From assembly GCA_018821715.1 (NCBI GenBank), contig JAHJLN010000394.1, forward strand, positions 1 through 64,000: a stretch of DNA of 64,000 nucleotides, written 5' to 3'. This DNA is from Pseudomonadota bacterium (lineage in GTDB: Bacteria; Desulfobacterota; Desulfobacteria; Desulfobacterales; Desulfobacteraceae). Below the pieces are notes generated by a model, which was not told where the DNA came from, made no database searches, and worked only from the letters and a program-made list of their open reading frames with translations. The first letter of the stretch is position 1. Every line of letters starts with the position of its first letter. A program made the position numbers and the translations under genes. Shown here piece by piece: positions 4,830 to 24,543 of this stretch.

Positions 4830-6056
4830 ATGAGAGTAGTAATCACCGGAATGGGAATAATATCACCTGTCGGGAATGACCTGGAGACGTATTGGCAAGC
4901 TTTGATCTCCGGCCATTCCGGCGTGGGGTTAATCCATGATTGTTGTTTGAGCCGATTAAATTGCCATTTCGCAGGTCAGGTCTGCAATTTAAACATCAAG
5001 GGTTTTTTGAATACAAGAGAAGTGCGACGTATGGATCGATTTTGCCAATTTGCAATTATTGCGGCAAAAAATGCATGGAACGACAGTGGACGAAATTCAA
5101 TCAAAGGTCCCCATGAAAATACCGGGGTGATTTTCGGAACGGGAATTGGCGGGATCTCTACCTGGGACAATCGTTTGATACCAAATTCGGATTCAGGCGA
5201 AAAAACAGGTATGGATGCCTTTACCATTCCACGCATTATGAACAATGCTGCAGCTGCACAAATTGCCATGCAATTAAATCTAAAAGGCATGAACATAACT
5301 GTAAATACAGCTTGTTCTGCAGGAGCCAATGCCATTGGAATGGCCTTTCGGGAAATCAGGGCTGGGAACTTAGACTGCATCATCTGTGGTGGAGCTGAAG
5401 CACCCATTACTCCCAAAATTTTGAAAGCCTGGGATATTTTAGGTGTGCTTTCAAAAGAAAATACGAAAAATGCAGTAAGGCCTTTTGATAAAAACAGAAC
5501 CGGTTTTGTCCTGGCCGAGGGGGCAGCCGCAGTTGTTCTGGAATCCCTAAATTCTGCGGCTCGGCACAACAGGAAAATTTATGCTGAAATAATCGGCTTT
5601 GGCTCGAACTGTGATGCGCACCATCTGACATCTCCTGCAAAAGCCGGCCAAGTAAAAGCCATTCGACTGGCTTTGAATGATGCAGGGATCAAGGCAAAAA
5701 AAATTGATTACATAAATGCACACGGCACAGCGACCAAACTAAATGATCGTGTTGAAACTTATGCCATTAAAGAAGTGTTTGAAAATTTTGCCCATCACAT
5801 CCCCATCAGTTCGACAAAATCCATGCTCGGTCATGCCATGGGGGCTTCATCAGCCATGGAGATAGTAGTTACAGCTTTGAGTGTAAAGAATAATGTCATT
5901 CATCCAACCTTGAATTATCAGGAACCTGATCCTGAATGCGATCTTGATTATGTTCCCGGAAAAGCCAGGATTAAAACAATAAACCATGCCCTATCAAATT
6001 CATTTGGATTTGGCGGCAGCAACGCAGTTTTAGTGGTGAAAAAATGGAAAAATTAA
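4830..6056 (+). CDS. Beta-ketoacyl-ACP synthase (FabF/KAS II-like), first gene of the RiPP-like cluster
   Basis: Active-site NTACSAGANAIG (Cys), NAHGTATKLND (His), STKSMLGHAMGASSAMEI (Lys/His). Confidence 0.92.
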   Translation: MRVVITGMGIISPVGNDLETYWQALISGHSGVGLIHDCCLSRLNCHFAGQVCNLNIKGFLNTREVRRMDRFCQFAIIAAKNAWNDSGRNSIKGPHENTGVIFGTGIGGISTWDNRLIPNSDSGEKTGMDAFTIPRIMNNAAAAQIAMQLNLKGMNITVNTACSAGANAIGMAFREIRAGNLDCIICGGAEAPITPKILKAWDILGVLSKENTKNAVRPFDKNRTGFVLAEGAAAVVLESLNSAARHNRKIYAEIIGFGSNCDAHHLTSPAKAGQVKAIRLALNDAGIKAKKIDYINAHGTATKLNDRVETYAIKEVFENFAHHIPISSTKSMLGHAMGASSAMEIVVTALSVKNNVIHPTLNYQEPDPECDLDYVPGKARIKTINHALSNSFGFGGSNAVLVVKKWKN

Positions 6057-6292
6057 AAAGAACAATCATTAAAATTATTGGGAAAGAACTTGATGTGCCG
6101 CCACGATCTATCAAGGATGACACATCAATTCAGGAAGATTTAGGTGCGGATTCTCTGGATGTCATTAACATTGTAATGGCCATTGAAAATAAGTTCAACA
6201 TTGAAATTGATCAGGATATGATTATGGAATTTAACACAGTGAACAACATTGTTCGTGCACTGGCAATAGCCATTGAGCCTGAAAGAAGATAA
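6044..6292 (+). CDS. Acyl carrier protein
   Basis: 82 aa, phosphopantetheine site LGADSLDVINIVMAIENKFNIEI; overlaps the ketosynthase stop. Confidence 0.95.
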   Translation: MEKLKRTIIKIIGKELDVPPRSIKDDTSIQEDLGADSLDVINIVMAIENKFNIEIDQDMIMEFNTVNNIVRALAIAIEPERR

Positions 6293-6295
6293 TTC

Positions 6296-8341
6296 ATGCG
6301 CAAGGATAAACAGGTACATTTAGAACAAATTGAAAAAGCTAAGTCATTGCAAACAAATGACAATATGCTAAAGATAGTACTCATTCCTAAATTAACGAAC
6401 CCTTTTATATGCAGGTTTTTTAATCCCAGGTATTCATTTGATACAGGGGTATTATCGCTTGGGTCATATGTCAGAAAAAAAGCTGATGTTACAATTAAAA
6501 GTATTTTTGGTCATATTGGAAAGAAATATCTGACCCGGACAGATATGATAAGAATTTCGAGCAAAAATTATCTGTATGAATTTGTAAATTATATCTTAGA
6601 TGAAGCGCCTGATATTGTTGGGCTAAGCTGCCTTGATACATCACTTTTAAATACCGTGGTCCTTTCAAAGGCCATTAAAACGAAAAACAACAATATCAAA
6701 ATTGTTTTAGGAGGTCCGGGTGTTTTTTACAATTCTTCTGATTTAATGAACAATTTTAACTTTATCGATTGTTGCATTATTGGTGAAGGAGAAATCGCTT
6801 TTGAAAACTTGATCGATTATTTTAATGGGAAAACAGCCATTGATAGCGTGCCCGGACTGGTCTACAGAAACGGATCAAAAATTTTAACCAATACTCCTGC
6901 AACCGTTATGGACATTAATGCACTCCCTTACCTTTGTTTTGATCTGTATGATGTACAGCCGGGCGCACTTAACTCCATTAATTGTGAGACAGGGCGCGGA
7001 TGTCCGTACCAATGCACTTTTTGCTCTACAACAGCTTTCTGGGGGAACCGGTTCAGGGTTAAGGACCCGGAACGTATGGCCTGTGAAATCAAGCATTATT
7101 GCAGGTTGTATGGAAAGATCTCTCATTTTGATTTTCATTCCCACGACAATTTCTTAACCAATAAAAAATACATTAAACAATTATTTTACGAACTTGGGAA
7201 ACGAAATCTAAAAATATCCTGGAACTGCAGTTCCAGGATAGACCAGCTGGATGATGAGTTTGTTGAAATCCTGAAACAAAGCGGATGCAATTATATAGAC
7301 TGTGGTCCTGAAAGCGGTTCTTCACGAATAAGAAAATTGATCAACAAGGATATTAATTATGAAGCCACTATTACCAATATTGAAAAACTGATCCGCAAGG
7401 GTATCGGCGTTGCCGTCAACTTTATGTTCGGGTTTCCCACAGAAACCATTGAAGAAATGGAAGAGACATTTGAGCAGGCCTGTAGATGCGTTGGTATAAA
7501 TGCAGACGTTGTGTTTTGTTTTTTATCGCCCATTAAAGGCACTAAAATTTATGAACAATTTGAGCAGTTACTGATTGATAAAGCCCAGGACCATATTCAT
7601 GATTTTACAGACACACGGGTAAATTATCTTTTTGGAACAGATACACTCGGCAAAGAACATCCATATTTTAATACCCGGATGAAGATGTTCAGCAATTACA
7701 AAGAATATGATGAAATTGTAGAAAAAATTCGGAGTTCCGACTCAGTTCATATTTTTATCCATTTAAGCAAGCTTTTGCTGGCGCTTAAACAAAAATTTAA
7801 AATTGATTTAACGGAATCCCACGCTGCCTTGAGGACATTCCCCTATACAGAAGACCTGTTCAAGTTTGCATTAAAACAGGCAAAAGAAAATTCAATCAGT
7901 GCCCAGGCGATGGCAATCGTATTGTATGAAGCAAATCATGAGCAGGGAAAAATCATTCCCGGAAGCCAGTTTGAGGATATAACATTGTTTATCCTGATGG
8001 ATCAGCTGGTTCGTCGGGATACTGTTTATTTACTTCAATGGGATTGTTTTAAACGAAATGCATACAATGGATTTTTCAAAGGGTTTGCAGACACGGATAT
8101 CTATCCGGAATTCTTTGAAATAGATGATTTTCAATTGTGCTCAGCATTTAAAATAACATCTTTAAAAACAATTTTTTTAAGATTCTATGACAAAAATTCT
8201 GAGGAAAAAATCCTGACAGGTATCACCCTGGACAAGAACCAGAACAAGTCCCTTCTTTATTATAAACCCCAGGTGAATGACAAAGAGATCAGATTCTTAA
8301 AAAATCTTGAAAAAATTATAGCAGGAGAAACGTATGCTTAA
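6296..8341 (+). CDS. B12-binding-domain radical SAM protein
   Basis: N-terminal cobalamin-like Rossmann region (DIVGLSCLDTS...KIVLGGPGV...GEGE) followed by CETGRGCPYQCTFCSTTAFWG (CxxxCxxC). Confidence 0.9.
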   Translation: MRKDKQVHLEQIEKAKSLQTNDNMLKIVLIPKLTNPFICRFFNPRYSFDTGVLSLGSYVRKKADVTIKSIFGHIGKKYLTRTDMIRISSKNYLYEFVNYILDEAPDIVGLSCLDTSLLNTVVLSKAIKTKNNNIKIVLGGPGVFYNSSDLMNNFNFIDCCIIGEGEIAFENLIDYFNGKTAIDSVPGLVYRNGSKILTNTPATVMDINALPYLCFDLYDVQPGALNSINCETGRGCPYQCTFCSTTAFWGNRFRVKDPERMACEIKHYCRLYGKISHFDFHSHDNFLTNKKYIKQLFYELGKRNLKISWNCSSRIDQLDDEFVEILKQSGCNYIDCGPESGSSRIRKLINKDINYEATITNIEKLIRKGIGVAVNFMFGFPTETIEEMEETFEQACRCVGINADVVFCFLSPIKGTKIYEQFEQLLIDKAQDHIHDFTDTRVNYLFGTDTLGKEHPYFNTRMKMFSNYKEYDEIVEKIRSSDSVHIFIHLSKLLLALKQKFKIDLTESHAALRTFPYTEDLFKFALKQAKENSISAQAMAIVLYEANHEQGKIIPGSQFEDITLFILMDQLVRRDTVYLLQWDCFKRNAYNGFFKGFADTDIYPEFFEIDDFQLCSAFKITSLKTIFLRFYDKNSEEKILTGITLDKNQNKSLLYYKPQVNDKEIRFLKNLEKIIAGETYA

Positions 8342-8870
8342 TGGGAAATTGGTATCATTAAGGGAATTGGAAATTCATGATTTGGACCTGCTTTTTTTGT
8401 GGGATGAAAAAGAAGATCTGTATTTATTTAAAGGCCGATACAGATTCGCTTCACAAGAAGATTTAAAGAATAATTTTACGGGGTATTCTTTTTCACAGAA
8501 AATATTCGTAATAAACAGAGATCAGGCTCCGATAGGGCTTGCTTCTTACTGGGATGAGGACACAAGAAGCAGAACCTGTGAGATTTATGCTAAAATTTAT
8601 GATAAAAGTGTTGATCCACACCCATATTTGACAGAATCCTTGAGTATCCTAATAAACTTTCTTTTCAACACTGAAAATTTATCAAGAATTTATACCTGTA
8701 TTTCAGATCCGTTTGACGAAATCAAGCAGGTTTTGGGAAAACTGGGATTTATAAAAGAGGGGGCGCTTCGTGACCACAGATTTATACAGGGACGGTATGT
8801 GGACACAGTGGTATATGGTCAGCTCAAGGGCGAAAACGGCCATCTGAAGACTGAAAAACTAAGGAGATAA
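8334..8870 (+). CDS. GNAT family acetyl/acyltransferase (RimJ/RimL-like)
   Basis: LVSLRELEIHDLDLLFLWDEKEDLY... and LGKLGFIKEGALRDHRFIQGRYVDTVVYGQLK; overlaps upstream gene by 8 bp. Confidence 0.85.
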   Translation: MLNGKLVSLRELEIHDLDLLFLWDEKEDLYLFKGRYRFASQEDLKNNFTGYSFSQKIFVINRDQAPIGLASYWDEDTRSRTCEIYAKIYDKSVDPHPYLTESLSILINFLFNTENLSRIYTCISDPFDEIKQVLGKLGFIKEGALRDHRFIQGRYVDTVVYGQLKGENGHLKTEKLRR

Positions 8871-8872
8871 TC

Positions 8873-9445
8873 TTGATAGACGGAAGGACAGTAAGCTTAA
8901 AAAAATTGGAACCAGATTATTTGCATCATATATATAAATGGCGCAATGATCCGGAACTTATGGACTTTTATGGCTTATACCCAACCATATCAATGGATAA
9001 AGTGCACGAGGAAATAAAAGCAAACAAGAACTTAAAAAACCGCCTTGATTTTATTGTTCTAAGCAAAAACAGGGATCCTATAGGAATGGTATGGGTAAAG
9101 CGGATTGACTGGATAAACTCAAATTGTGAGTTGAACTGCATGATTGGTGAAAAAAGCTATCGTTCAAAAGTGTTTGGAGCAGAGGCAATCTTTCTTTTGC
9201 TCTTGTTTTGCATGAACGAATTAAACCTGCATAAAGTGTATGCAAAAATTATAGAATTCGCCCGGGAGAGCCATAAACTTGTATCCCATATTGGGTTTAA
9301 AAAAGAAATAGCTTTAAAAAAAATGGTATTTCAGCATGGAAAATACTGGGATTTAATTATTTATGGGCTCTTGCGCAAGGAATTTGAAGCTTTTATCAAC
9401 AGCACTCAGGGTCAAAAATACCTGTTGTCTTCAAGGAAGATATAA
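8873..9445 (+). CDS. GNAT family acetyl/acyltransferase (RimJ/RimL-like), tandem paralogue; TTG start
   Basis: MIDGRTVSLKKLEPDYLHHIYKWRNDPELMDFYG..., VSHIGFKKEIALKKMVFQHGKYWDLIIYGLL. Confidence 0.83.
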   Translation: MIDGRTVSLKKLEPDYLHHIYKWRNDPELMDFYGLYPTISMDKVHEEIKANKNLKNRLDFIVLSKNRDPIGMVWVKRIDWINSNCELNCMIGEKSYRSKVFGAEAIFLLLLFCMNELNLHKVYAKIIEFARESHKLVSHIGFKKEIALKKMVFQHGKYWDLIIYGLLRKEFEAFINSTQGQKYLLSSRKI

Positions 9446-9464
9446 CCTGAAGGTCACACGTAAA

Positions 9465-11567
9465 ATGAGACAAACAAACATGAATTTACTACCAGATCAG
9501 GTTTTTAAAGAATTACACAATGTCCGCTTTCATGTGTCCAATGTATGCAATCTTAATTGCACTTATTGCCATGTCTTTAAAGAGCCGGTTTCAGATCAGC
9601 CAAGGCTTATGAAATTTAATGGTATTCAATCAACACTGGATTTTTATGCAAAATTAGATGAAAGGCATTCCAACCAAATATTTAAATTCAGTTTTTACGG
9701 GGGAGAGCCTCTATTTAACTGGAAAGTAATCAAAAAAGCTCTTTCTTACGGTAACAAGATGATTCCGGATAAGATTGAATGGATATTAAATACAAATGGG
9801 ACAATCATTACCCGGGACAAGGCAGAAATTCTTTTCAAAGAAGGGGTGGATGTCCATGTCAGTATTGACGGACCTGATGAAAAAACAAATAAAAACAGGC
9901 GTTTTAAAACCGGCAGGCCCGTATTAAAAAAAGTATTGAATTCCCTTGAAATCCTCATGCGAAATAATTGCAGGGTTCAATTTGATTCCTGCCTTACTAC
10001 GGCAAACATGGATGCACTTGAACCTTTGATTGATCTTGCTTCACAGATCCAAGTGGACAGAATCTATCTGGCATTAACCGATGAGCCAGGTAGGTCTGAA
10101 AAAGATTTTTTTAATGCTGAAAATGTTGCAGATCGATTAATTAATGCTTTGAAATATGCCGAAAAAAGGAAAGTTATCCTTGGCGGCCCCTGGAAATGTT
10201 TTTTTCCATTATTTTTGCCGCAGTCAAATATGCAGGTCAAACAACACCCCCATTTAATACTGGATACTTCAGGCAATTTATCCTTTCCTTCCTTTCCAGA
10301 GGTTAAATTAGGGAGTGCTGCCCAAATTGAAACTATTTCAGAATCAGGAGCATATACGGCTGCTTTAAAAAAAATAGCCGATATGGCAATGACTTGCAAA
10401 GGATGCAACCTTGCAGAAGTTTGTTCGGGTTATTTAAAAGGCATGGTTAAATATCATACCGGCACATTACAGGGACATAAAAAGGAATGTGATCTGGCAA
10501 GAGCTGTGTTTAATAAATATTCAATATTTATGGCTGATATTCAAACTGAAAAAAACAACAGCAATATGTCAATTATTGATTCAAACATGCTTGAAAAGCC
10601 TTTTATCCGTTCCAGGCATTTAGCTGCGCAGCCCCAGGGGAATCATTACAGGATTGTTCATGGGTTGAGCGGCCATGCTATTCAAGCATCCAAAGATATG
10701 CTTGAATTTATTGATTCATTTCAACAGCCCCAGACACCTCTTGACCTGTTGAACAAATATCATATCCCAAACATCATGCTGACAATTTCGGCACTGGTTA
10801 AAAATAATATTTTGCTGGACTTGTCAAAAGACGAAGAGATGGAATATCTTGACAGAAAAATGTTAGGCTTTCAAAAAAACAGGATTGATACCTTGAACTG
10901 CACCTGTTTCTACCCTTTAAATGATATTGAGCCTGCCCGTGAATTCGTACACTTTATAGAGACACTGTATTTGAATCTGAGCACAAGAATCCAGCCTTTA
11001 CGGCAAAAAATCATCATTTATCTTTGCCAGGATAAAAATGAATTAGCCAAATTCTGGTTTGAGCCGCAGATTCCCCCCTGGATAAAGGCTTTTGTAGCCA
11101 GCCGCCGCATCCTGGCTGCCGATATCAATAAAATCAACAACACACATGGTCAGGGGTTTGAACAGGGAATGTCCCATGAGATAACTCATATTCTCCTGGG
11201 TGATTTTAATGTCAGGCTTCCGGTATGGTTGGAAGAAGGCTTATGTGAATATTATTCAAAACCTGATCCAACAGCAAAGCTTTTGGCCCTGACCAGGCAA
11301 AAAAAACTGCTTTCATTTAAGGAACTGGAAGCAAGAGCCATACATACCCTGCTTGATGTCGACAACTCAAGAACCCAGGAAAATATCTGCTATCATCAGT
11401 CCCATAGTTTTGTATCTTTTCTTTGCAGGACATTTGGAGAAAAAGAAATTTTAACTTGCTTAAAAAACATGGGACTGCAAACAGATTTTCCCCGGGCATT
11501 TTATGAAACTACTGGCAAAAGTCTGGTAGGAATGGAGAAAGAATGGCGCAAAAAACTTTTAAGCTAA
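9465..11567 (+). CDS. Radical SAM/SPASM-like peptide maturase with internal RRE-like module and C-terminal gluzincin-type (HExxH) peptidase-like domain
   Basis: VSNVCNLNCTYCHVF (CxxxCxxC), FYGGEPLFNW, CKGCNLAEVCSG...C SPASM-like cysteines, then SHEITHILLGDFNVRLPVWLEEGLCEYY (HExxH-x15-E). ORF track begins upstream at 9363; ATG 9465 avoids most of the overlap. Confidence 0.88.
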   Translation: MRQTNMNLLPDQVFKELHNVRFHVSNVCNLNCTYCHVFKEPVSDQPRLMKFNGIQSTLDFYAKLDERHSNQIFKFSFYGGEPLFNWKVIKKALSYGNKMIPDKIEWILNTNGTIITRDKAEILFKEGVDVHVSIDGPDEKTNKNRRFKTGRPVLKKVLNSLEILMRNNCRVQFDSCLTTANMDALEPLIDLASQIQVDRIYLALTDEPGRSEKDFFNAENVADRLINALKYAEKRKVILGGPWKCFFPLFLPQSNMQVKQHPHLILDTSGNLSFPSFPEVKLGSAAQIETISESGAYTAALKKIADMAMTCKGCNLAEVCSGYLKGMVKYHTGTLQGHKKECDLARAVFNKYSIFMADIQTEKNNSNMSIIDSNMLEKPFIRSRHLAAQPQGNHYRIVHGLSGHAIQASKDMLEFIDSFQQPQTPLDLLNKYHIPNIMLTISALVKNNILLDLSKDEEMEYLDRKMLGFQKNRIDTLNCTCFYPLNDIEPAREFVHFIETLYLNLSTRIQPLRQKIIIYLCQDKNELAKFWFEPQIPPWIKAFVASRRILAADINKINNTHGQGFEQGMSHEITHILLGDFNVRLPVWLEEGLCEYYSKPDPTAKLLALTRQKKLLSFKELEARAIHTLLDVDNSRTQENICYHQSHSFVSFLCRTFGEKEILTCLKNMGLQTDFPRAFYETTGKSLVGMEKEWRKKLLS

Positions 11568-12979
11568 AAGTATCAAAGAATACAAGGGTGATTAAACATA
11601 AAGAAAAAGCCATTGTATACAATGCATTTTATGGCGATGGGATGGTCTGTCATATTGATATGCTTGAGCTTATTGACAACATAAAACAAGGCAAATCAAT
11701 CCAGGAGCTAAAAAAGCAGTATCAGCAGTTGAATATAGGAACCAGTATATCGGAATTAATGAAAAAAGGGCTTGTTGTTGAAAAGAATATTTTAGAAGCA
11801 AACAGGCCATATCGTGTTTACAGCGATGCGGAAATCGAGAGCGGCTGTCTTATTAATAAACTCCGCCTGAATGTCAGCCATGCATGCAATATGAGATGTG
11901 CATATTGTTATGTCGATAAAAAAGATGCCGGCAATATTGATGCAACAATGACATGGAACACGGCAAAAAAGGCGATCAATAAATTTTTCAATCTTCTAAA
12001 GCAGCACAGCCATAAATTTTGTATCATTAGGTTTTTTGGGGGGGAGCCCCTTCTTAACTGGCCTGTGATCAGGCAAAGCCTGGAATATATACAAAAAGAA
12101 AGCCATGGAATATCTGTCAGCTTTCTTTTAAATACAAATGGAACAATATTTACAGAAGAAATCGCCAAAACCCTTTCGATCCAAAAGATCGGACTGGCAA
12201 TCAGTTTGGATGGTACTAGCAAAGAACATGATCTTGTAAGACAATTCAAATCCGGCAAACCGAGCTATGAAGTGATTGTCCGTCATATTGAAAATTTTTT
12301 AAGGGCGGGCTGTATCCTGGGTATTGAAACAACCATCGGCGACCATAATATTTTTAGGCTCAAAGGTCTGATCGATCAAATTGCCTTATGGAACACAACA
12401 TTTAAAGTCAGTATCCCGCTTTCATTCCAGCATCTTGCAATTGTGGATAAAACAAAAATTGACACTATTCCGGTAAAAGAGAAAACAAAGCAGATAATTG
12501 CTTTGATTGAATCCGCCGGCAAAAAGAATGTCAGAGCAGATACAGGCATGGTTCATTTTTCAATAAATGCACTTAAGGGGCAAAGGAATACCGGCAGATA
12601 TTGCAGGGCCATGGGGGGAGAACTATGCGTTTATCCAAACGGAGATATATATCCCTGCGGTGCACTTAAAATCAAACTCGGCGCCATTGATGATATAATG
12701 TCTGTTTTTAGATCTATCGCATATCATAGTTTAGCAAACAGAACTGCAGGGAATATCCCAGCATGTAGAGGATGCGAAATAGAAGCCTTTTGCGCAGGAG
12801 GATGCGCAGCTGATGTATTTGCCGTAAGTGGTGTTGTGAATACCCGGATGATAAATTGTGATTTGGAAAGAAAGTTATTTAAAAATCTGGTGAAAAGAGA
12901 TGTTTTAGCTTTTACTAAATTTAGCATAAAAACAGGAGGTGGTGCTTATGGATGTGGTATCCCGGTAACCGTATTTTAA
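11543..12979 (+). CDS. Radical SAM/SPASM peptide maturase with N-terminal RRE/PqqD-like segment
   Basis: VSHACNMRCAYCYVDKK (CxxxCxxC), FFGGEPLLNW, LDGTSKEHD, C-terminal CRGCEIEAFCAGGCAAD SPASM; immediately upstream of the precursor peptide. Confidence 0.93.
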   Translation: MAQKTFKLKVSKNTRVIKHKEKAIVYNAFYGDGMVCHIDMLELIDNIKQGKSIQELKKQYQQLNIGTSISELMKKGLVVEKNILEANRPYRVYSDAEIESGCLINKLRLNVSHACNMRCAYCYVDKKDAGNIDATMTWNTAKKAINKFFNLLKQHSHKFCIIRFFGGEPLLNWPVIRQSLEYIQKESHGISVSFLLNTNGTIFTEEIAKTLSIQKIGLAISLDGTSKEHDLVRQFKSGKPSYEVIVRHIENFLRAGCILGIETTIGDHNIFRLKGLIDQIALWNTTFKVSIPLSFQHLAIVDKTKIDTIPVKEKTKQIIALIESAGKKNVRADTGMVHFSINALKGQRNTGRYCRAMGGELCVYPNGDIYPCGALKIKLGAIDDIMSVFRSIAYHSLANRTAGNIPACRGCEIEAFCAGGCAADVFAVSGVVNTRMINCDLERKLFKNLVKRDVLAFTKFSIKTGGGAYGCGIPVTVF

Positions 12980-13014
12980 GTTTAAAATATTTTTTTTGTA
13001 AAGGAGGATATAAA

Positions 13015-13314
13015 ATGGAAAAGAAAACTTTGAATCTAAATTTTGTAGAGTTGGAGCATTTGGAAGAAGACAATGAGATATGCCTTATGCCATGTCCGTG
13101 TTCAGCTACAGCAGCTGGAATAGGGGATACTATAGGGGGCTATATTGCGGGTAAAATTATCGACAACGTACTAAACAACGGTATACCGGCGAAAGATCCT
13201 TGCACAGGATCGCTTAGCCCCTGCGGCGGCCCATGTGGAACTGATAGTGATTGGGGAGGAATAACTGCTGATATTGAGGGTGGCGACAGTGGCGGTGGTG
13301 GTGGAGGCAAATAA
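13015..13314 (+). CDS. Putative RiPP precursor peptide (99 aa), Cys- and Gly-rich core
   Basis: Strong SD AAGGAGG at 13001-13007, 7 nt before ATG 13015; charged leader MEKKTLNLNFVELEHLEEDNE then ICLMPCPCSATAAGIGDTIGGYIAGKIIDNVLNNGIPAKDPCTGSLSPCGGPCGTDSDWGGITADIEGGDSGGGGGGK; directly after a SPASM radical SAM gene. ORF track start 12952 adds 21 aa. Confidence 0.82.
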   Translation: MEKKTLNLNFVELEHLEEDNEICLMPCPCSATAAGIGDTIGGYIAGKIIDNVLNNGIPAKDPCTGSLSPCGGPCGTDSDWGGITADIEGGDSGGGGGGK

Positions 13315-13343
13315 GATATTTACAATAACTTAAATAAAAAAAC

Positions 13344-13392
13344 TTCCAGGTTTTACCTTAGACACTATCTCTTATATGGGTGGGACCTGGAA
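13344..13392 (+). promoter_or_regulatory. Inverted repeat/hairpin just downstream of the precursor peptide gene (possible attenuator or mRNA-stabilising element)
   Basis: TTCCAGGT(13344-13351) pairs with ACCTGGAA(13385-13392); extendable by TTT/GGG wobbles and ACC/GGT; no clean U-tract follows. Confidence 0.5.
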
Positions 13393-13501
13393 TTAATTAT
13401 TGGTAGCAAGTTGATTTACCTGAAAAAGTTTTCAACTATAACTCAATAAATTCAAATGGCTATTTTATAAATAAAAAGATTAAACAAGAGTAATTGATAT
13501 T

Positions 13502-14595: not shown

Positions 14596-14988
14596 ATGAC
14601 AACTAAACGAAAAAAAGCAATAGATATATTTTGGAGAACTTATTTCTTTGCATATATTATTATTTTGATAATAGGAGTGTTTCCAAGTGTGTTTGGCGAA
14701 AACATATGGACGTGTAGTATACAAATTAAAATAATGGATGTCATATTCTGTGTTATAAATGTGACAGGATTATTTGCTTATACTTATGAAAAAAATGTTT
14801 TTAAACCTGTTTTCTGGAAAATATTTTTTCCTGTTTTATTGATTTGGCATGTTTACTTAAATGTTTTTGTTATGCCTGTTACTAAACCGGGAAACATAAC
14901 TATACTTAGATGGATAATGATAGATTTATCGATACATACTCCTCTTTATCTTGCTATTTTTTTGTATGCATTTAAATCCAAAAGGTAA
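14596..14988 (+). CDS. Small multi-TM membrane protein of unknown function (130 aa)
   Basis: About four hydrophobic segments; good RBS (aaggggatat-ATG); embedded in the RiPP-like cluster; no recognised family. Confidence 0.6.
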   Translation: MTTKRKKAIDIFWRTYFFAYIIILIIGVFPSVFGENIWTCSIQIKIMDVIFCVINVTGLFAYTYEKNVFKPVFWKIFFPVLLIWHVYLNVFVMPVTKPGNITILRWIMIDLSIHTPLYLAIFLYAFKSKR

Positions 14989-14995
14989 TCTTAAA

Positions 14996-17125
14996 ATGAA
15001 AGAGTTGAATTTATATCCTCTGTCAGGGTTGCTTATGGAGTTACAGACGGCTGGTCTGCAAGACATATCAGCAGAAAACCGCCTGGTTTTAGAGGGTAAA
15101 CATTCTTTGAAAAGAGCGAACAGCTTATTCTGGGCAAAACATCTTGCCATGCCCCAATTGGAATCCTTAATGGATCTTGTCAAAGACAGATATAGATACT
15201 CGCCTTGTTATATCCCACGATTTCAGGCTATCTTAGATAATCCGAACCTGTTCTTAAGCCAGGTTAAAAAGGCTCTTGCAGGGCTCAGCTGCCCGGTTGT
15301 ATCCGAACAAAAGTTCTTTTCAGCCATGAAATGTATGACTGTTCTATGTAATCTGTATTCGGATTTTATCTATAAGCCATTCAGGCTTACGATTGACCAG
15401 GGATTTTTGCTCGATGTAACGGATACCAGGGTATTGGTGAAAGACTACCTGAGTCCTGTGACCAATCCATATTTTAATTTCATAAAAGAACATTGCCGGC
15501 CAATCATTGAAGCAATGTCGCCTGATTTGATATGGATATACGGTCAGCCGACGTTTTCCAGTTATGCCATGGCCATGTTTGCAAGAAAGGCATTCTCTGA
15601 TGTGCATATATGCCTGGTTGATTATCCGTCAGAATATTATTCATTAAACAAAATTAAAAGTTTCCTTAAAACAAATAAACTTCTTTTTTCCATAATTGAC
15701 AGCATCCTTTTACATAATGATATTGAAACTCAAAAAAGTATCGTACATGCTCTCGAAAATAGCGATCCTTTAAATACAGTTCCGAACTTGATTTATATTG
15801 GCCGGAATGAAGATAAAATAAAAAGCCCCCCTACTAATTTATCCGCCAAAAATGATGTTACGGTGATGTTCCCTTCTTTTGAATCTTTATTCCCAAACGA
15901 TGAATTAAGAAAAAATGAGTATAATTCAGCCGTCGCGGCTTTAAAAATGTGGCCTCAAAATGCCTGCTACTGGAATAAATGCACTTTTTGCGGGATTAAT
16001 CAGAAATACCATACTGGTTTTGTCCGTGAGCGGTTTGAAAATATAGATCAAATAGTTAATTTTGTCGCCAAACTGACAAATGAAGGATATCGATTTTTCT
16101 GGATGATTGATGAAGCTGTTCCACCGGATGTTCTTAAAGTATTTGCCTATAAGTTAATAGAACGAAAAATCATTGTAAACTGGGGAGTTAGGTCCAGAAT
16201 TGATAAAGATTTTTCCCGACAGGTTTGCGATTCACTTGCAAAGGCCGGGCTTAGAGAAATTCGTTTTGGTCTTGAGTCGGCAAGTTATCGTATTTTAAAA
16301 TTAATGAATAAATTTCCAGATGATTTTCATCTGTCTTTAGTTGAAAAAATAGTAAAAAGATTTCATGAATTAGGCGTATCTGTTCATTTATGTATAATCC
16401 TTGATTTTCCGGGAGAAACTCATAATGATCGCATGGAAACATTTGATTTTCTTAGGGATCTAAAAAATAAATATCATAGCGTTACATTTAACCTGAACCG
16501 ATTTATGCTGGATATAACAAGCAAGATGTTTGTCCGGTATGAAAATTTTGATATTACCAGGATTGAATGGCCCTGTCCTTCAAAATATTTTTTAGGGAAT
16601 ATGGTTGAATGGAATTCAGAAAACAGACATTACCACAAAAATAATATTGATGACATAAGAAACAATTTCATGAGGCGAAATCTTTACCCCTGGATGCCTC
16701 TCTATCCAATGACACCGCCGTTCAATTTTTATATGCAGAATGAAGCATTTAAAATGACCCTGCTCTGGAAAACAAAAATGTTTTCCAAGCAAATAAAAGA
16801 AAAGATAGTTATGTCAATGGAGACCAGAGCAGTCAAATCAGACAACATCGTTTACAGCAAACTCAAAAAAAGAGGAGTAGATAACCTATATTTTTACCAG
16901 GTATATAATTGGGACTCTCATATTTATTTTGACTGTGATGAAAGATTAACAAAATTATATGACATATTTATACAGGCTCGAACTATTCAAGAGGGTTTGG
17001 AGTTGTTTTTTAATAAATATTTGAATTCTTTTATGTCCCAGGAACAGGTATTTGGAAAATATTATCCAGAGCTTGAAAAAGCTTTTAATTTAAAAATTGT
17101 TCGTCTGGAAAATAGCAATGTATAA
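14996..17125 (+). CDS. B12-binding-like radical SAM protein, RiPP-maturase type
   Basis: MWPQNACYWNKCTFCGINQKYHTGF (CxxxCxxC), FFWMIDEAVPPDVLK, INWGVRSRID-like and LREIRFGLESAS motifs; N-terminal Rossmann-like region PDLIWIYGQPTFSSYAMAMFA. ORF track start 14951 overlaps the preceding gene; ATG 14996 preferred. Confidence 0.85.
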   Translation: MKELNLYPLSGLLMELQTAGLQDISAENRLVLEGKHSLKRANSLFWAKHLAMPQLESLMDLVKDRYRYSPCYIPRFQAILDNPNLFLSQVKKALAGLSCPVVSEQKFFSAMKCMTVLCNLYSDFIYKPFRLTIDQGFLLDVTDTRVLVKDYLSPVTNPYFNFIKEHCRPIIEAMSPDLIWIYGQPTFSSYAMAMFARKAFSDVHICLVDYPSEYYSLNKIKSFLKTNKLLFSIIDSILLHNDIETQKSIVHALENSDPLNTVPNLIYIGRNEDKIKSPPTNLSAKNDVTVMFPSFESLFPNDELRKNEYNSAVAALKMWPQNACYWNKCTFCGINQKYHTGFVRERFENIDQIVNFVAKLTNEGYRFFWMIDEAVPPDVLKVFAYKLIERKIIVNWGVRSRIDKDFSRQVCDSLAKAGLREIRFGLESASYRILKLMNKFPDDFHLSLVEKIVKRFHELGVSVHLCIILDFPGETHNDRMETFDFLRDLKNKYHSVTFNLNRFMLDITSKMFVRYENFDITRIEWPCPSKYFLGNMVEWNSENRHYHKNNIDDIRNNFMRRNLYPWMPLYPMTPPFNFYMQNEAFKMTLLWKTKMFSKQIKEKIVMSMETRAVKSDNIVYSKLKKRGVDNLYFYQVYNWDSHIYFDCDERLTKLYDIFIQARTIQEGLELFFNKYLNSFMSQEQVFGKYYPELEKAFNLKIVRLENSNV

Positions 17126-17134
17126 ACCGAGGTT

Positions 17135-18907
17135 GTGGTGGTGCAGATGAGAGATCAGGCAAACAATACATCTGCATATCAGAATATCCTTAAATTTGCA
17201 GTGCTTCTCAAACCGTACTGGAAGAATATTATTGTCTTTATCCTCACCGGTCTTGTATTGACACTTCTTTCACTGCCTTATCCATGGCTGACCAAGATGA
17301 TGGTTGATGATGTCATGTTAAGGCAAGACAATTCCCTGCTCTATGTCATCCTTGGTGCAACCTTTATATTGACTATTTTCAGGTCTTTATTTTCATCAAT
17401 CAGAAGCTATTATATTTCATATGTACAGCATGCCATGGCCTATGATATTGAGCTTAACTTTTTCAGGCATTTACAAAAGCTGTCCTTTTCATTTTTCGAT
17501 TCCAGAGAAATCGCTGAAGTGTTGTCAAGGTTCCGAGATGCCGCCCAATCCCGTCGGATACTCATTGATATTTTGAACAGGATTATCACTAACCTGCTTT
17601 ATTTAAGCATTGTCCCCATCATTGTTTTTTTCATGAACTGGAAGCTGGCATTGATAGCTGGAATAACATTGCCATGGCTTGCATTCTCGTTTTTTGTGCT
17701 GTCAAAGATTGTCCGGAAATATGCCCGGATTGTTGCTGAAAAAAGGGCAGCGCTGTCTGCAAAAAATTATGAATCCTTTGTGGGGATAAGAGAAATACAG
17801 GCGCTGAACATTGAGAACCGGATGTTAAACCGGGTAAAACTCTTGCTCCTTAAATTCAGGAAAAAAGACATGGAAATGAGGGTGATCAGCAATGCCCAGG
17901 GACTGCTGGGGGGGATTGCAACGGCAGGCGGGACACTTCTTTATACATGGTTCGGTGCAACGCTTGTCATCAAAGGGGAAATGACGGTGGGGGAGTTAAT
18001 CGCTTTTACCACTTTTATCGGATATCTTTATAGCCCATTAACAGATATGGTGGGGCTTTTAGTACCGATACAAGAAGTGGTTGTGTATACGAAAAGGTTT
18101 TATGAAATATACGATATTAACCCTGAAATCCAAAATCCGGCAAAGCCTGTAAAATTGAAAAAGATAAAAGGCGACGTGGTTTTTTCAAATGTCTGTTTTG
18201 GATACAACACGTCAGATCTGCTTTCATTAAACAAAATAAATTTGACCATCCCGGCAGGTACCAAAGTAGCAGTGGTGGGTCAGACCGGATCAGGCAAATC
18301 CACGTTAGTCAGCCTGATCCCTCGGTTTTACGATCCTTTCGAGGGAAGTATCATGATTGACGGAATCGACATAAAAGAGATGTCCCTCGATTGTCTGCGT
18401 TCTATGGTCGGGGTGATGATGCAGGCGCCGTTCATATTTGCCGGTACTATTTTTGATAACATTACCTGTTGGAAAAAAGGATTCTCCCGAAATGAAGTCA
18501 CTAAAGCGGCCAGGACTGCAAATGTGCACGATTTTGTGTCAAGGCTGCCAGATGGCTACGATACTCTGGTGGGTGAAAAGGGAGAAACATTGTCTGGTGG
18601 CGAAAGGCAACGGATTGCTCTTGCAAGGATAATTTTATTGGACAGACCGATATTAATTCTTGATGAAGCATTGAGCAGTGTGGATCAAAATACCCTGAAA
18701 CTGATTCAGGGCGCATTAAAAAAAGTAACTGAAAATCGCACTGTTTTTATGGTGACGCACAGAATGGAAATGGTGAAGGATGCAGATATTATTATTGTTC
18801 TTGATAAAGGCAGGATTGTTGAGCAGGGGTCACATCACAAGCTCATTAAAAAAAAGGGGGTCTATTACAGGCTTTACCAGAATATATTGCAACCAGCGGG
18901 GGATTAA
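17135..18907 (+). CDS. ABC transporter, fused permease/ATP-binding (exporter type, no N-terminal C39 peptidase)
   Basis: Six-TM N-terminus; Walker A GQTGSGKST, signature LSGGERQR, Walker B RPILILDEALSS. Confidence 0.95.
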   Translation: MVVQMRDQANNTSAYQNILKFAVLLKPYWKNIIVFILTGLVLTLLSLPYPWLTKMMVDDVMLRQDNSLLYVILGATFILTIFRSLFSSIRSYYISYVQHAMAYDIELNFFRHLQKLSFSFFDSREIAEVLSRFRDAAQSRRILIDILNRIITNLLYLSIVPIIVFFMNWKLALIAGITLPWLAFSFFVLSKIVRKYARIVAEKRAALSAKNYESFVGIREIQALNIENRMLNRVKLLLLKFRKKDMEMRVISNAQGLLGGIATAGGTLLYTWFGATLVIKGEMTVGELIAFTTFIGYLYSPLTDMVGLLVPIQEVVVYTKRFYEIYDINPEIQNPAKPVKLKKIKGDVVFSNVCFGYNTSDLLSLNKINLTIPAGTKVAVVGQTGSGKSTLVSLIPRFYDPFEGSIMIDGIDIKEMSLDCLRSMVGVMMQAPFIFAGTIFDNITCWKKGFSRNEVTKAARTANVHDFVSRLPDGYDTLVGEKGETLSGGERQRIALARIILLDRPILILDEALSSVDQNTLKLIQGALKKVTENRTVFMVTHRMEMVKDADIIIVLDKGRIVEQGSHHKLIKKKGVYYRLYQNILQPAGD

Positions 18908-21715
18908 ATGAAAAAAATAATTGTTTTATCAATGGTGTTATTATTGTTTGCTTCATGTGCAACCCACTTGGTGTATGGGCCTAAAGACCTTAATAATGGC
19001 CTGGTGAACGACCCGGAAATCAGAACCGGTGTTCTTGAAAACGGATTACGGTATGTGATCCGGGAAAATAAAAATCCAGAACAAAAAGCTGAATTCAGGT
19101 TTGGGATCAATAGCGGTTCATTAATGGAAGAAGATGATGAAAAGGGAATTGCGCACTTTATCGAACATATGGCGTTTAACGGGACAAGGCATTTTAGTCA
19201 AAAAGAAATGTTTGATTTTTTTCAGAAGAACGGTATGTCATTCGGAGCGGATTTTAATGCGTACACTACCCATACTCGAATTGTTTATAAGTTTCCGTTG
19301 CCTTCAGATCAGAAAAAGACAATTGACAAGGGATTTTTAATACTGAAGGACTGGGCTGATGGTATCCGGTTTGAAAAACAGGAAGTAGATAAAGAACGAA
19401 ATATCATCTTAGAGGAATTGCGGGCAAGAAAAAATTTGAATCAACGGATAATGGATAAAATAATGCCGTTGGTGTATGGGGTCTCTTATTTAAAAAGCCG
19501 TCCCATTGGACTGGAAAGTGTTATTAAAACAGTTTCGCATCAAAAACTCAAGGCGTGCTACAAAAAATGGTATCAGCCCCAACGGATGGTCGTTGTGGTT
19601 GTGGGCGATATTAATGCTGATGTGATCGAAGCCAGGATAAAATCAACTTTTTCCGGTTTAAAAAACAATAAGGACCTGCCTGGATTAAAAGATTTTGATG
19701 TTCCAGAATATGATACCTTCCAGTATGCGACGGTTAGCGACCCTGAGTTGACAGAATCATCCATAAGGATTTACCAGCATATCAACACAAGAAAATTATT
19801 CACAGAAAGAGACCTGCGTCAATATCTGATCGAGCAAATCTATAGTGCTATTTTGAAAAATCGTCTGCTGGATAAAAGCTTGTCAAATTCTTCCTATGAG
19901 CGGATTTTATATTCTCAGGACTGGCTGAAAAAATATGACGGAGTTTTTTATCTGGCAGCAACGGTGAAAGACAATCAGTTTAAGGCATGCTTTGAAGAAA
20001 TCTTTCTGGAATACGAAAGAATGAAACGATATGGGGTTTTTGAATCAGAGGTAAAAGAAGCAAAAAAAAATCTATTGGACAGTTCCAAAACAGGTGATAT
20101 TGAGCAAAAAACAAAAAAATCAGAAACGTTTGCCAATCAATATGTTTCTAAATCCATGGATGAAAGCATCATGTTTTCTCCAAAGGAGTACATCAGGCTG
20201 TGTAAAAAATATCTGCCTTCCATAAAGGATGACGATATCAACCTGTTCTTAAACCGCATCGATCCAAACAACAGAGTAATCGTCTGCCAGGGAAATAACT
20301 TATTCATAAATTTTTTCCCAAACAAAAAAGACATGGATGCCCTTTTTGCAAAAGTTTCATCCATGGAGGTTGGACTGTATTCCCATCAAAGAGCTAAAGA
20401 AGGGCTGCCCATGCAGCAGCTCACAAAAAGCAAGATTGTTAATACAAAATATTATGAAAAGATTAATGTGACCCGGCTCGAACTTTCCAACGGAGCAAAA
20501 GTCGTTTTGAAACCCACCTTGTTTAAACAGGATGATGTTGTCTTCAGAGCCTACAGCCCCGGTTGTCTTTCATTGCTGGATCTAAAATTCCTTCCTTTGA
20601 TGGAGTTGGCAGACCCTATTTTTAAACAGTCAGGACTCGGGCCCTTAACAAAACTTGAACTATACAGCAAACTCAAGTCAAAAAAAGTGAATGCCAGTAT
20701 CTATGTAGATATCCATGAGGAAGGCATCAGCGGATATTTTTCCCCTGCAAACCTGGAATTTTTTTTCAAATTGATCAGCCTAGGGCTTTCCCAGCCAAGG
20801 GTTGAAAAAAGCGCTTTTGAAGAACAAAAATTAAAATATATCCAAAAAAAACAGAAGATGCAGAATACAGCTTTCTGGAAATTTCGAGAAAAAATCCTTC
20901 AGACAGCCTGGCCTGAAAATGCTTATAATCATATAATTGGAGCCGAATCCATTCAAAAACTTGAATTTATTTCCAGCAAACAGGCCCTTAAGGACCGGTT
21001 CCAAAATGCCGGTGATTTTACGTTCCAGTTTGTGGGTAATTTTAAAATGCATGATATCCTGCCCCTGATTGAAAAACATCTGGCCGGGCTTCCGGCAGAT
21101 AAGATAAAAGAAAAAGCAAAAAATATAAATTGTAAGCCTTTGCCTGGGAAATTTTCTATATCTATGAATGAGAATATTGAGGAGAAAAGCAATATTTTTA
21201 TTTTTTTAAATCATTATTACACGGTTTCTGAAAAAAAATTATTTGAATTCTCTGCATTGGAAACTATTTTGAATATGAAAATCAATGAGTCATTAAGAGA
21301 GGATCAAAGCCTGATTTATACCAGTAAGGCATGGAGCCGTTTTTTTTCTTTGAAACCATCACCGCATTGTGTCATCGGCTTTGTTTTTACCTGTGCGCCT
21401 GAAAATGCTGAAAAGGTGGTGTCCGGGGTGAAAACGATTCTGAAAGATCTGCGTGAAAACAGGATGTCTGAAGAGAAGATCACGCAAATTAAACGAATAC
21501 AGGCAACAAAGGCTCGGGAAGCCAGACAGGATAATAACTGGTGGTCCAGCGCATTAAAAGATTCGGTTATGCTGAACCAGGATCTTAATGATCTGATGGA
21601 ATATGAAAATTATATTCAAGAACTGACACCTGACACTTTACAAAGCAATGCAAAAAAATACCTGGATGAGGCCAATATGCTGGTTGCTGTTTTAAATCCC
21701 AAGAAGGACGAATAA
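18908..21715 (+). CDS. M16 family (pitrilysin/insulinase-like) metallopeptidase, predicted lipoprotein
   Basis: Lipobox MKKIIVLSMVLLLFASC; HFIEHMAFNGT (HxxEH); ILEELRARKN downstream Glu; two M16 halves. Confidence 0.92.
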   Translation: MKKIIVLSMVLLLFASCATHLVYGPKDLNNGLVNDPEIRTGVLENGLRYVIRENKNPEQKAEFRFGINSGSLMEEDDEKGIAHFIEHMAFNGTRHFSQKEMFDFFQKNGMSFGADFNAYTTHTRIVYKFPLPSDQKKTIDKGFLILKDWADGIRFEKQEVDKERNIILEELRARKNLNQRIMDKIMPLVYGVSYLKSRPIGLESVIKTVSHQKLKACYKKWYQPQRMVVVVVGDINADVIEARIKSTFSGLKNNKDLPGLKDFDVPEYDTFQYATVSDPELTESSIRIYQHINTRKLFTERDLRQYLIEQIYSAILKNRLLDKSLSNSSYERILYSQDWLKKYDGVFYLAATVKDNQFKACFEEIFLEYERMKRYGVFESEVKEAKKNLLDSSKTGDIEQKTKKSETFANQYVSKSMDESIMFSPKEYIRLCKKYLPSIKDDDINLFLNRIDPNNRVIVCQGNNLFINFFPNKKDMDALFAKVSSMEVGLYSHQRAKEGLPMQQLTKSKIVNTKYYEKINVTRLELSNGAKVVLKPTLFKQDDVVFRAYSPGCLSLLDLKFLPLMELADPIFKQSGLGPLTKLELYSKLKSKKVNASIYVDIHEEGISGYFSPANLEFFFKLISLGLSQPRVEKSAFEEQKLKYIQKKQKMQNTAFWKFREKILQTAWPENAYNHIIGAESIQKLEFISSKQALKDRFQNAGDFTFQFVGNFKMHDILPLIEKHLAGLPADKIKEKAKNINCKPLPGKFSISMNENIEEKSNIFIFLNHYYTVSEKKLFEFSALETILNMKINESLREDQSLIYTSKAWSRFFSLKPSPHCVIGFVFTCAPENAEKVVSGVKTILKDLRENRMSEEKITQIKRIQATKAREARQDNNWWSSALKDSVMLNQDLNDLMEYENYIQELTPDTLQSNAKKYLDEANMLVAVLNPKKDE

Positions 21716-23068
21716 ATGAGATTCAAGCTTCAGTTTATTTTTATCGATCATATCTTGCGCATATTTTTATTATTACTGGCAGTGTTGTTTACTCTGATTT
21801 TAGTCCTGTTCTGGTTTTTTAGAATGGATATTACGGCAAAAGGCGAGGGAAAAGTTATTTGCGCCGAGTGGGAGGATGTCAAGCCTGAGATTGACGGTAT
21901 CATTAAAAACATGGAAGTTATTGAAGGCCAGGAGATAAAAAAAGGGGAGCTGCTGTTTGTTCTGGAAGACAGGGAAAGAAAATTAGAAACCCAATCAAGT
22001 TTACAGAAAATAGTTGAAATAAAGAAGGCTATTTCTACGATAAAACAAAATATTTCTATCAGAAAACAGAACGTATCCAGTAGCATTGATGAGGCAAAAG
22101 CTTCTCTGAGTGGAGCTCAGGCCGGATTCAGAATCATGGAAAAAGGACCTAAAGATGAAGAAATCAACCTTGCACAACGCAGTATTAAACGCGCAGGTCA
22201 ACAAGTTGAAAAGGCGGTTCTTGATTTTGACAGAATGGAAAAAGCCTTTTCATTAAAACTGGTCTCCAGGCAGGAGCTGGACAATAGCTCACACCAAAAA
22301 AACATAGCACAGACAGATCTGGCGCTTGCTAAAGACCAATTGGCGCTTTTATTGAATAGATATGACAAGGATCAGCAGGACACGGCCCGGGCTATATTGG
22401 AAAAACAGAAGGCCATCCTTGAAAAAGCCATTGCCCGCAGGAAAGAGATTGAAATTTTAGGACAGGAACTTATCGCTGCTCAAAAAGGGCTGATAACAGA
22501 GGAAAAACGAATGGAAGCATTGACGAAAAAATTGATGCTGACCCAGGTTACAGCACCTATTTCAGGGATTATAATGACCTATGATACCAAACATCTTGAA
22601 GGGAAAGCAGTTTCCATGGGAGAAGTTGTTTTAAAAATCGGAGGTATGAATGAGTATCTTATTGAGTGCAAGATTTCTGAAAAAGATTTTCCCTTGGTAA
22701 AACCCGGGCAACAGGCCCGGGTAACAATGAAACCGTTTCCCAGAGGGGAATATAAACTCTTTTCCGCCATAGTGGCGACAACAGGGACTGACAGCACATC
22801 AGGAGGGCCTTCAGCAGGTATTGGGATAGAAGAGAAAATAAATGCGCTAATGAATGGTCCACAAGCTTTAACGGAAAATTATTACCCTGTAACACTCAAG
22901 CTTGAAAAACCATATTATATACTCCTTTTTGGAAACCGGTATGAGGTAAAACCCGGATTTTCTGCACAAGTCCAGATTATTGTCGAAAATGAACGTATTG
23001 CAACTTTGTTGTTTAAAAGAGTGCTTCGGATTAAAGGGAAGTTGACCTGGGACAACATTCATCTATGA
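21716..23068 (+). CDS. HlyD-family periplasmic adaptor / membrane fusion protein
   Basis: Single N-terminal TM, lipoyl-like VICAEWEDVKPEIDGIIKNMEVIEGQEIKKGELLFVLED, coiled coil, VTAPISGIIMTYDTKHLEGKAVSMGEVVLKIG. Confidence 0.9.
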   Translation: MRFKLQFIFIDHILRIFLLLLAVLFTLILVLFWFFRMDITAKGEGKVICAEWEDVKPEIDGIIKNMEVIEGQEIKKGELLFVLEDRERKLETQSSLQKIVEIKKAISTIKQNISIRKQNVSSSIDEAKASLSGAQAGFRIMEKGPKDEEINLAQRSIKRAGQQVEKAVLDFDRMEKAFSLKLVSRQELDNSSHQKNIAQTDLALAKDQLALLLNRYDKDQQDTARAILEKQKAILEKAIARRKEIEILGQELIAAQKGLITEEKRMEALTKKLMLTQVTAPISGIIMTYDTKHLEGKAVSMGEVVLKIGGMNEYLIECKISEKDFPLVKPGQQARVTMKPFPRGEYKLFSAIVATTGTDSTSGGPSAGIGIEEKINALMNGPQALTENYYPVTLKLEKPYYILLFGNRYEVKPGFSAQVQIIVENERIATLLFKRVLRIKGKLTWDNIHL

Positions 23069-24543
23069 TGTTAAAAACCTTACATATCTTTATAATGCTC
23101 CTGGTTTTGGTCCTATGGCCTGCGGGGTGCTTCCCCTTGGAATTAACCCTCTTGAAGGCTGTAAAACTGGCCTTGGAAAATAATCCTGACGTCCGGATAA
23201 ATAGCCTGGAGCTTGAAATTAGACAATCTGAAATAAAAAGAAAACTCGCTGAATATATTCCAACGCTTAACCTGGATTCTTCATACACTTATTCTAAGGA
23301 TGATCCGGACACTTCTGATTTAACGACGAAAAATCAAAATTACCAGGCAGGCATTTCCCAGAAAATTCCTTTGGGTGGCGAGATTTCATTGTCTGTTAAT
23401 TATGGAAGATCAGATTACTCAGACTATCAGACTGAAATTACGAATTATAGGTTAGGCTCCGGATTTTCAGTTGAATCATATACCGATACCCTGGCTGTTG
23501 CAGCTAAAGATAATTATTATACACAAATCAATCTGTTCTACAGGCATCATTTGCTAAAAGACGGAATTATCGGCCCTGCTTTTATCCCGATTAAAGAGAG
23601 TCGCTTTGATCGGGACATACAACAGGATGTGACAAGCCAATCCCAAATAAAACTCATAAGACTGGTTGAAACATCGTTTTATCAGACCGCGCTAAGACAG
23701 AAGGAAATACAAGTATATCAGGAGATTTTTGAAATTAACAAACAGCTTCTTCAGGATATAGAATCAAAACAGAGATTAGGCATGATACCTGAAATAGATG
23801 TCATGTCTGCAAAAATCAAAGTAAATGAGGCAAGCGAACAAGTTCTGTCTTCACAGGTTTCTTTTGAAATCAGCGCACAAACACTTAAAACGCTGCTGAA
23901 CACCGAGGATCAGATAAAGGTGATCACTCAATTTTCATCACCGAACGCTCTACTGAATTTAGATGATTTGGTCTCCCTGGCAATGGAAAAAAATAAAGAG
24001 GTAGCAAAGTTAAAAACAAGCTTAAAAAAAGAAGCTTTGTCGGTTGCGGTTGCCAAAAACAAATATCTTCCTCAAGTTGATCTTTATTTTAATATAAATA
24101 AAAATGATGAGGGGGCTTCTTTGGGTGAAGCAACTGATTTGGACAAAACGGAATATAAGGCAGGTATTATTTTTATCTACCCTTTTTATCCAATAGATCC
24201 TGAACAAAATTATATCCAGGCAAAAAAAAGACTTCAAAAAGCAAAAGCACAACTCAAGGAAGCTGAGGTACGAATTACAAATCAGATCAATATGCTTTAC
24301 AACCAGATACTATTGGTGGAAAAAAAAATATCTGTTCAAACCAGGCAAATCAAAATTCTTAAAGAGCGCATGGCCTTGGCATTAAAGGCCTTTAAAGAAC
24401 GATTAATTGATCTGAAAATAGTTTATGATATCCAAGACGACCGAGTATCAGGTGAGCAAAAATATTTGTATTATTTTTTTGAGTATCAGAGTTTATTTTC
24501 ATCGCTACAGGAATTAACAGGGCAGCAACTGGGTTATGATTAA
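23065..24543 (+). CDS. TolC-family outer membrane efflux protein
   Basis: Signal peptide, LTLLKAVKLALENNPDVRINSLELEIRQSEIKRKLAEYIPTLNLDSSYTYS; paired coiled-coil repeats; 4-bp overlap with the HlyD-like gene. Confidence 0.9.
   Translation: MMLKTLHIFIMLLVLVLWPAGCFPLELTLLKAVKLALENNPDVRINSLELEIRQSEIKRKLAEYIPTLNLDSSYTYSKDDPDTSDLTTKNQNYQAGISQKIPLGGEISLSVNYGRSDYSDYQTEITNYRLGSGFSVESYTDTLAVAAKDNYYTQINLFYRHHLLKDGIIGPAFIPIKESRFDRDIQQDVTSQSQIKLIRLVETSFYQTALRQKEIQVYQEIFEINKQLLQDIESKQRLGMIPEIDVMSAKIKVNEASEQVLSSQVSFEISAQTLKTLLNTEDQIKVITQFSSPNALLNLDDLVSLAMEKNKEVAKLKTSLKKEALSVAVAKNKYLPQVDLYFNINKNDEGASLGEATDLDKTEYKAGIIFIYPFYPIDPEQNYIQAKKRLQKAKAQLKEAEVRITNQINMLYNQILLVEKKISVQTRQIKILKERMALALKAFKERLIDLKIVYDIQDDRVSGEQKYLYYFFEYQSLFSSLQELTGQQLGYD

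Follow-up and report, generated by a model that had tools for sequence, protein, structure and literature searches.

A rare, probable gene cluster for a radical-edited and perhaps acylated peptide in a member of the Desulfobacteraceae

A fifteen-gene run and its maturase proteins

The window analysed here, a stretch of 64,000 nucleotides from contig JAHJLN010000394.1 of a Desulfobacteraceae genome (assembly GCA_018821715.1), carries between positions 4830 and 24543 a candidate gene cluster for a ribosomally synthesised and post-translationally modified peptide (RiPP). The original prediction, made from the letters alone, had described a co-directional run of 15 genes there on the plus strand, and Pfam and NCBIfam profile searches together with motif reading bore out the open reading frames (ORFs), their order and the named domains. 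The gene ends do mostly overlap or abut, the main gaps being about 190 nt past the peptide gene and about 250 nt ahead of the ketosynthase (KS) gene that opens the run. The four radical S-adenosylmethionine (SAM) enzymes predicted for the run are matched by four hits to PF04055, out of 71 radical SAM matches in the 5.7-Mb genome. All window genes described below lie on the plus strand unless stated otherwise.

The core of the run consists of two genes that overlap by 25 nt. The first (9465..11567) encodes a radical SAM domain (6e-17), a module resembling a RiPP recognition element (RRE; here RRE1) and a gluzincin protease domain (Peptidase_MA_2, 6e-9; HEITH...EEGL). The second (11543..12979) encodes a peptide maturase of RRE, radical SAM and SPASM domains with seven invariant cysteines. 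In five related loci, those of Desulfobacterales HSG2, Desulfococcaceae HSG8, Thiomargarita CSMAG_1815, Rubrivivax A210 and genome G1103 (locus L084), the same parts make up one polypeptide, roughly 1,050-1,250 residues long and arranged as rSAM-(RRE)-gluzincin-RRE-rSAM, which argues that the two proteins of the window act together. The enzyme of Desulfobacula G091, a genome from the window's own genus, has lost the first radical SAM domain. Every full-length copy retains CxxxCxxC and a CX2CX5CX20C (AuxII-type) set in the first radical SAM domain, HExxH with a downstream Glu in the middle domain, and CxxxCxxC with the complete SPASM cysteine set in the second radical SAM domain. Of the auxiliary-cluster ligands, by analogy with anSMEcpe, the first radical SAM domain presumably retains just those of the second cluster. 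A sequence search of the PDB with the gluzincin-RRE profile gave no match, which leaves the Pfam MA_2 hit and the conserved motif as the grounds for the protease assignment. In the model of the SPASM protein the N-terminal part folds like an RRE (RRE2), and the model matches TigE and CteB, so that this protein carries the leader-binding domain expected of a RiPP maturase; RRE1 is the weaker case, and profile comparison (hhalign, 93.7%) indicates that the two modules are related.

The gluzincin region of HSG8 (L061/L030) bears an in-frame insert, NSPPFLKGAWGIF...NSPLPPFKKGGNDL, between conserved blocks of the protease domain; it resembles a repeat element of the genome across which the reading frame stays open. 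At HSG2 (L060), the stretch 600-840 that separates the PCGG peptide from the enzyme consists of in-frame low-complexity codons (poly-Leu/Phe, then Glu/Gln-rich), and the mechanical ORF start of this enzyme is therefore probably far too early.

Precursor peptides and the distribution of the family

The short Cys/Gly-rich peptide foreseen in the original prediction is present (13015..13314), and its position is between the maturase genes and the genes for the CPBP protease and the exporter. Its start was moved from 12952 to the ATG at 13015, which follows a near-perfect ribosome-binding site, AAAGGAGGATATAAAATG. The 99-residue product comprises a leader (MEKKTLNLNFVELEH...), the sequence CLMPCPC, a glycine-rich helix, a PCTG..PCGGPCGTD segment and a glycine tail.

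A single scan of some 85,000 species genomes, together with searches in roughly 1,450 whole genomes, was used to find relatives of the maturase. The scan used the gluzincin-RRE profile and depends on exact peptide patterns, so that distant copies may escape it; it returned five loci, in Desulfobacula G091 (L032/L059), HSG2 (L060), HSG8 (L061), Thiomargarita (L062) and Rubrivivax (L063). L084, from a different class, was added by sampling the phylum of the window. No further copy of the maturase was detected at the limits used in 43 genomes of the order of Thiomargarita or in 399 of that of Rubrivivax, nor was one found in 23 genomes of the class of G1103. Neither the precursor nor the fused enzyme had a tblastn match on plasmids, and the gluzincin profile had none among viral contigs. 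From these sequence surveys the family looks rare and patchy.

The neighbourhood survey proposed for the 9465-11567 protein, which would have counted against a RiPP had homologous loci lacked a short peptide gene beside the SPASM gene, found no such locus among the six relatives: in all seven loci, the window included, a short Cys-bearing peptide ORF lies directly beside the enzyme, as is generally expected of RiPP clusters. The related precursors adjoin the enzyme in G091 (L032, 12504-12755), L084 (6379-6696), HSG2 (L060, 259-537) and Rubrivivax (L063, from an in-frame start at about 8290 to 8529), and that of HSG8 (L061, 8517-8777) overlaps the enzyme's open frame. Thiomargarita L062 has two such peptides upstream of the enzyme (8523-8687 and 8800-9003), which are paralogous, of PCGGG type and seemingly membrane-anchored, with the second running into the enzyme's open frame.

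A leader motif, L-[NRD]-[ILV]-[KENR], is common to all eight peptides and reads LNLN in the window. Seven have CG-type Cys/Gly sequence; the Rubrivivax peptide ends in DCIACCVRG. When both strands of 248 kb were searched for ORFs of 40-130 codons with at least three Cys, at least 15% Gly and the leader motif, only six were recovered, all from the eight peptides, a result to be read as a consistency check and not as an independent test, since the motif is short and was derived from these same peptides. The precursors match no NCBIfam model. The peptides of HSG2, HSG8 and Thiomargarita have a hydrophobic, transmembrane-like N-terminal helix and end in PCGG repeats, with a Cys at each fourth or fifth residue in HSG2 and HSG8, while a zipper-like segment rich in glycine is found instead of the N-terminal helix in those of the window, G091 and L084.

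Acyl genes, exporter and accessory enzymes

The run opens with genes for a FabF-like KS (4830..6056) and an acyl carrier protein (ACP; 6044..6292; PF00550, 1e-16). The KS scores 486.6 bits against a fabF cut-off of 493.75 and has an intact Cys/His/His active site (Cys162/His298/His335); the serine motif of the ACP, GADSLD, is likewise intact. Relatives of the KS (at least 77% identity) are found in G000, G091, G257 and G338, with a 77% fragment in G376, so that it occurs in five of the six genomes of the genus that bear the HlyD gene described below and in none of the 20 others (hypergeometric probability about 9e-5, ignoring relatedness). The ACP gene is kept behind that of the KS in G091, G257, G338 and G376. 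Because the pair tracks the exporter within the genus, we regard both as cluster genes. Their assignment as housekeeping fatty-acid genes was considered and rejected, since the KS is restricted to exporter-bearing genomes and the genome has other FabF-type KS genes. Two GNAT acyltransferase genes follow, GNAT1 (8334..8870; PF13420/PF13302), with a 35% homologue in L084, and the more conserved GNAT2 (8873..9445; PF13302, 7e-15), with 85% identity in G376, 40% in G091 and 43% in L084.

The last part of the run encodes an ATP-binding cassette (ABC) exporter (17135..18907), a HlyD-type membrane fusion protein (21716..23068) and a TolC-type outer membrane protein (OEP/TolC; 23065..24543). HlyD relatives (at least 69%) occur in six of 26 genomes of the genus; the search covered 86 genomes of the family and gave no others. 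The ABC protein is 78% identical in G091, 87% in G338 and 64% in L084, and the TolC gene lies directly behind that of HlyD in G091, G338, G376, G257 and G223. The ABC protein lacks the C39 peptidase domain that marks class IIb exporters acting on a double-glycine leader, so that leader removal must fall to another protease, for which the gluzincin is the family-wide candidate. A CPBP (Rce1-like) intramembrane glutamic protease (13502..14563; PF02517, 4e-23; EEILFR/HSFNN motifs) is also encoded shortly after the peptide in G091 and L084 and may serve in processing or self-immunity. GNAT2, CPBP, ABC and HlyD are all kept in these two loci.

Other genes are optional or accessory, namely those for the M16 metalloprotease and the two extra radical SAM enzymes. 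The M16 protein (18908..21715; lipoprotein signal LFAS|C; HFIEH) is kept in G338 and G257 and is absent from G091 and L084. Both extra radical SAM enzymes had been called B12-rSAM. For the first, enzyme a (6296..8341), this stands (B12 6e-14, rSAM 6e-24; ApyD-like at a sub-cut-off score); it is absent from G091 and L084. In the second, enzyme b (14951..17125, start probably 14993), Pfam detects no B12 domain within 14993-17125; it carries a noncanonical CX4CX2C motif, its closest models are of the PhpK type (PhpK / RiPP C-methyltransferase-like; 60 bits against a cut-off of 600), and a C-terminal remnant of it persists in G338. Between CPBP and enzyme b lies a gene for a small predicted membrane protein of 130 residues (14596..14988), transmembrane-like, for which Pfam and NCBIfam searches gave no family match. 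In G091, whose cluster has no M16 gene, a second HExxH protein of 502 residues with weak similarity to the Hvo_1808 surface protein is encoded beside the peptide (L032, 12903-14411).

The assemblies of G257, G338, G376 and G223 break inside the cluster and lack its middle (contigs L049, L056, L047, L057, L031, L048 and L050), perhaps owing to population variants or repeats; a query with enzyme b found nothing of the missing contigs, an empty result that shows little. In the window itself, the upstream genes for FtsX-like, M23, S41/CtpA and divergent polysaccharide deacetylase proteins and the minus-strand genes beyond 24543 are outside the cluster. Further along, at 51639-55474 on the minus strand, a glycyl radical enzyme resembling pyruvate formate-lyase is encoded, and a likely activating radical SAM enzyme adjoins it.

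The proposed product, its alternatives and known systems

Taken together, the anatomy of the run, the RRE, the adjacency of peptide and enzyme, the exporter and the RiPP-like neighbourhood in Rubrivivax, where YcaO, nitroreductase and B12-rSAM genes adjoin the locus, are best explained by a RiPP cluster of a rare, undescribed family, and we consider it likely that its peptide is radical-edited, probably acylated, and exported. The cross-linking, leader cleavage and acylation set out here are suggested by the enzyme families. Two modules would grip the leader strand (LNLN), the RRE in the SPASM enzyme and its relative in the rSAM-gluzincin protein. Cys-based cross-links or other radical edits in the Cys/Gly segments would come next, made by the SPASM enzyme and probably also by the first radical SAM domain. 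The built-in gluzincin, part of a single chain in most relatives, would remove the leader or trim the edited peptide before its release. KS and ACP may provide a fatty acyl chain, which a GNAT would link to a Lys or to the newly exposed N terminus. Selidamides bear such a group, placed by a GNAT, on an Orn/Lys side chain. The extra radical SAM enzymes may add optional changes such as methylation, and CPBP may provide membrane processing or immunity. The product would leave by ABC-HlyD-TolC, with M16 trimming in the periplasm. A glycine-zipper segment carrying a lipid would be in keeping with a membrane-active product of the microcin type.

Several observations weigh against parts of this scheme. 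RRE1 is modelled at low confidence (pLDDT, the predicted local distance difference score, below 50 at 357-459) and is missing from the Thiomargarita enzyme. The precursors of G257, G338, G376 and G223 are unseen because these assemblies lack the middle of the cluster, and the short leader motif used in the precursor control comes from the very peptides it recovered. The acyl-CoA P-loop of GNAT1 is not recognisable in the alignment. KS and ACP are absent beside L084, where a transposase gene occupies their expected place upstream, and from the exporter-less loci, so that acylation may be an extra confined to one lineage.

For the acylation suggested as possible in the original prediction there is an alternative, which we judge unlikely but worth serious consideration: a RiPP without fatty acylation, whose GNATs acetylate the N terminus or a Lys from acetyl-CoA, perhaps for self-protection, while KS and ACP make a separate lipid or signal from a shared operon. 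The GNATs do resemble small acetyltransferases of the RimJ/SpeG/PseH type, at sub-cut-off scores, and L084 has both of them with no KS or ACP nearby. However, the KS/ACP pair immediately precedes the GNAT genes in the window, G376, G257 and G091 and occurs in exporter-bearing genomes only, and the degenerate P-loop would be odd for a plain user of acetyl-CoA. Acylation is supported by the co-conservation of the GNATs, and within the genus of KS and ACP, but stays at the level of inference. Less probable still is that the rSAM-gluzincin-SPASM enzyme originally edits a membrane-tethered structural or redox PCGG-repeat peptide, the versions of Desulfobacula and L084 having been co-opted for export. 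The transmembrane-like helices and PCGG repeats of HSG2, HSG8 and Thiomargarita would fit, and nothing related to the exporter or acyl genes of the window lies near those loci, but the dedicated exporters of the window, G091 and L084 and the RiPP-typical YcaO and nitroreductase neighbours in Rubrivivax speak against it. It is most improbable that the run merely juxtaposes a fatty-acid KS/ACP pair, a peptide exporter and, in between, an orphan anaerobic maturase: although the B12-rSAM, enzyme b and M16 genes are not in all relatives, order and co-occurrence are conserved across genomes with different flanks, L084 keeping GNAT1-GNAT2-enzyme-peptide-CPBP-ABC-HlyD despite its different class. A defence system was also considered and set aside, since the PADLOC pVip matches span only the generic radical SAM core.

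Returning to the RiPP cluster, we propose more tentatively that it represents a class defined by a single polypeptide, or split pair, that combines two leader-binding RREs, editing by two different radical SAM domains and its own gluzincin cleavage, the Desulfobacula product being in addition lipidated by GNATs from a dedicated ACP and KS. We see a fair prospect that the chemistry would merit a RiPP class of its own. A protease fused by nature to leader-binding domains and a pair of radical SAM modules would be a self-contained peptide editor, allowing the order of editing and cleavage to be studied within one protein. The family occurs chiefly in sulfur bacteria and anaerobic sulfate reducers, groups that have received little attention as sources of such products. 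The original view that no described family has this gene set holds for NCBIfam, Pfam and the open-access literature searched, most subscription papers being outside reach.

Class IIb bacteriocins likewise have a glycine-zipper (GxxxG) peptide adjoining a CPBP immunity protein, but here the exporter lacks C39 and the peptide is Cys-rich and set among radical SAM enzymes. CXXX-repeat and Cys-rich systems (TIGR04115; CcpM, TIGR04068) share a Cys-rich precursor adjoining a SPASM enzyme, but scores against these models are far under the cut-offs and those systems have no protease fusion. TigE (PDB 8VPO), CteB (PDB 5WGG) and the ranthipeptide maturase PapB (NF047865) share the RRE-rSAM-SPASM layout and the full-length fold of the SPASM protein; PapB, whose ranthipeptide products are marked by thioether links from Cys to a non-alpha carbon, is the top NCBIfam model, yet at 155.5 bits against a cut-off of 340 the protein falls outside that family. 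Fused RREs are widespread (PMC12710340); what sets the present SPASM enzyme apart from TigE, CteB and PapB is a gluzincin protease and a second radical SAM domain, either fused to it or encoded alongside. Lipidation of RiPPs by GNATs is known from selidamides, nostolysamides and class III lipolanthine-type peptides (PMC9505594, PMC13060382). In selidamides and nostolysamides, as here, a GNAT lies beside a RiPP precursor and fatty acylation has been proposed, but the characterised members are on lanthipeptide scaffolds (PMC9505594, PMC13060382), whereas the proteins of this cluster lack a lanthionine synthetase domain and include their own KS and ACP. In the class III lipolanthines (microvionin, goadvionins, lipoavitides) a GNAT also places the lipid (PMC13060382); the present cluster has radical SAM enzymes and neither a class III lanthionine synthetase nor a large polyketide synthase, and a radical SAM peptide with its own fatty-acid supply would carry RiPP lipidation past lanthipeptide scaffolds.

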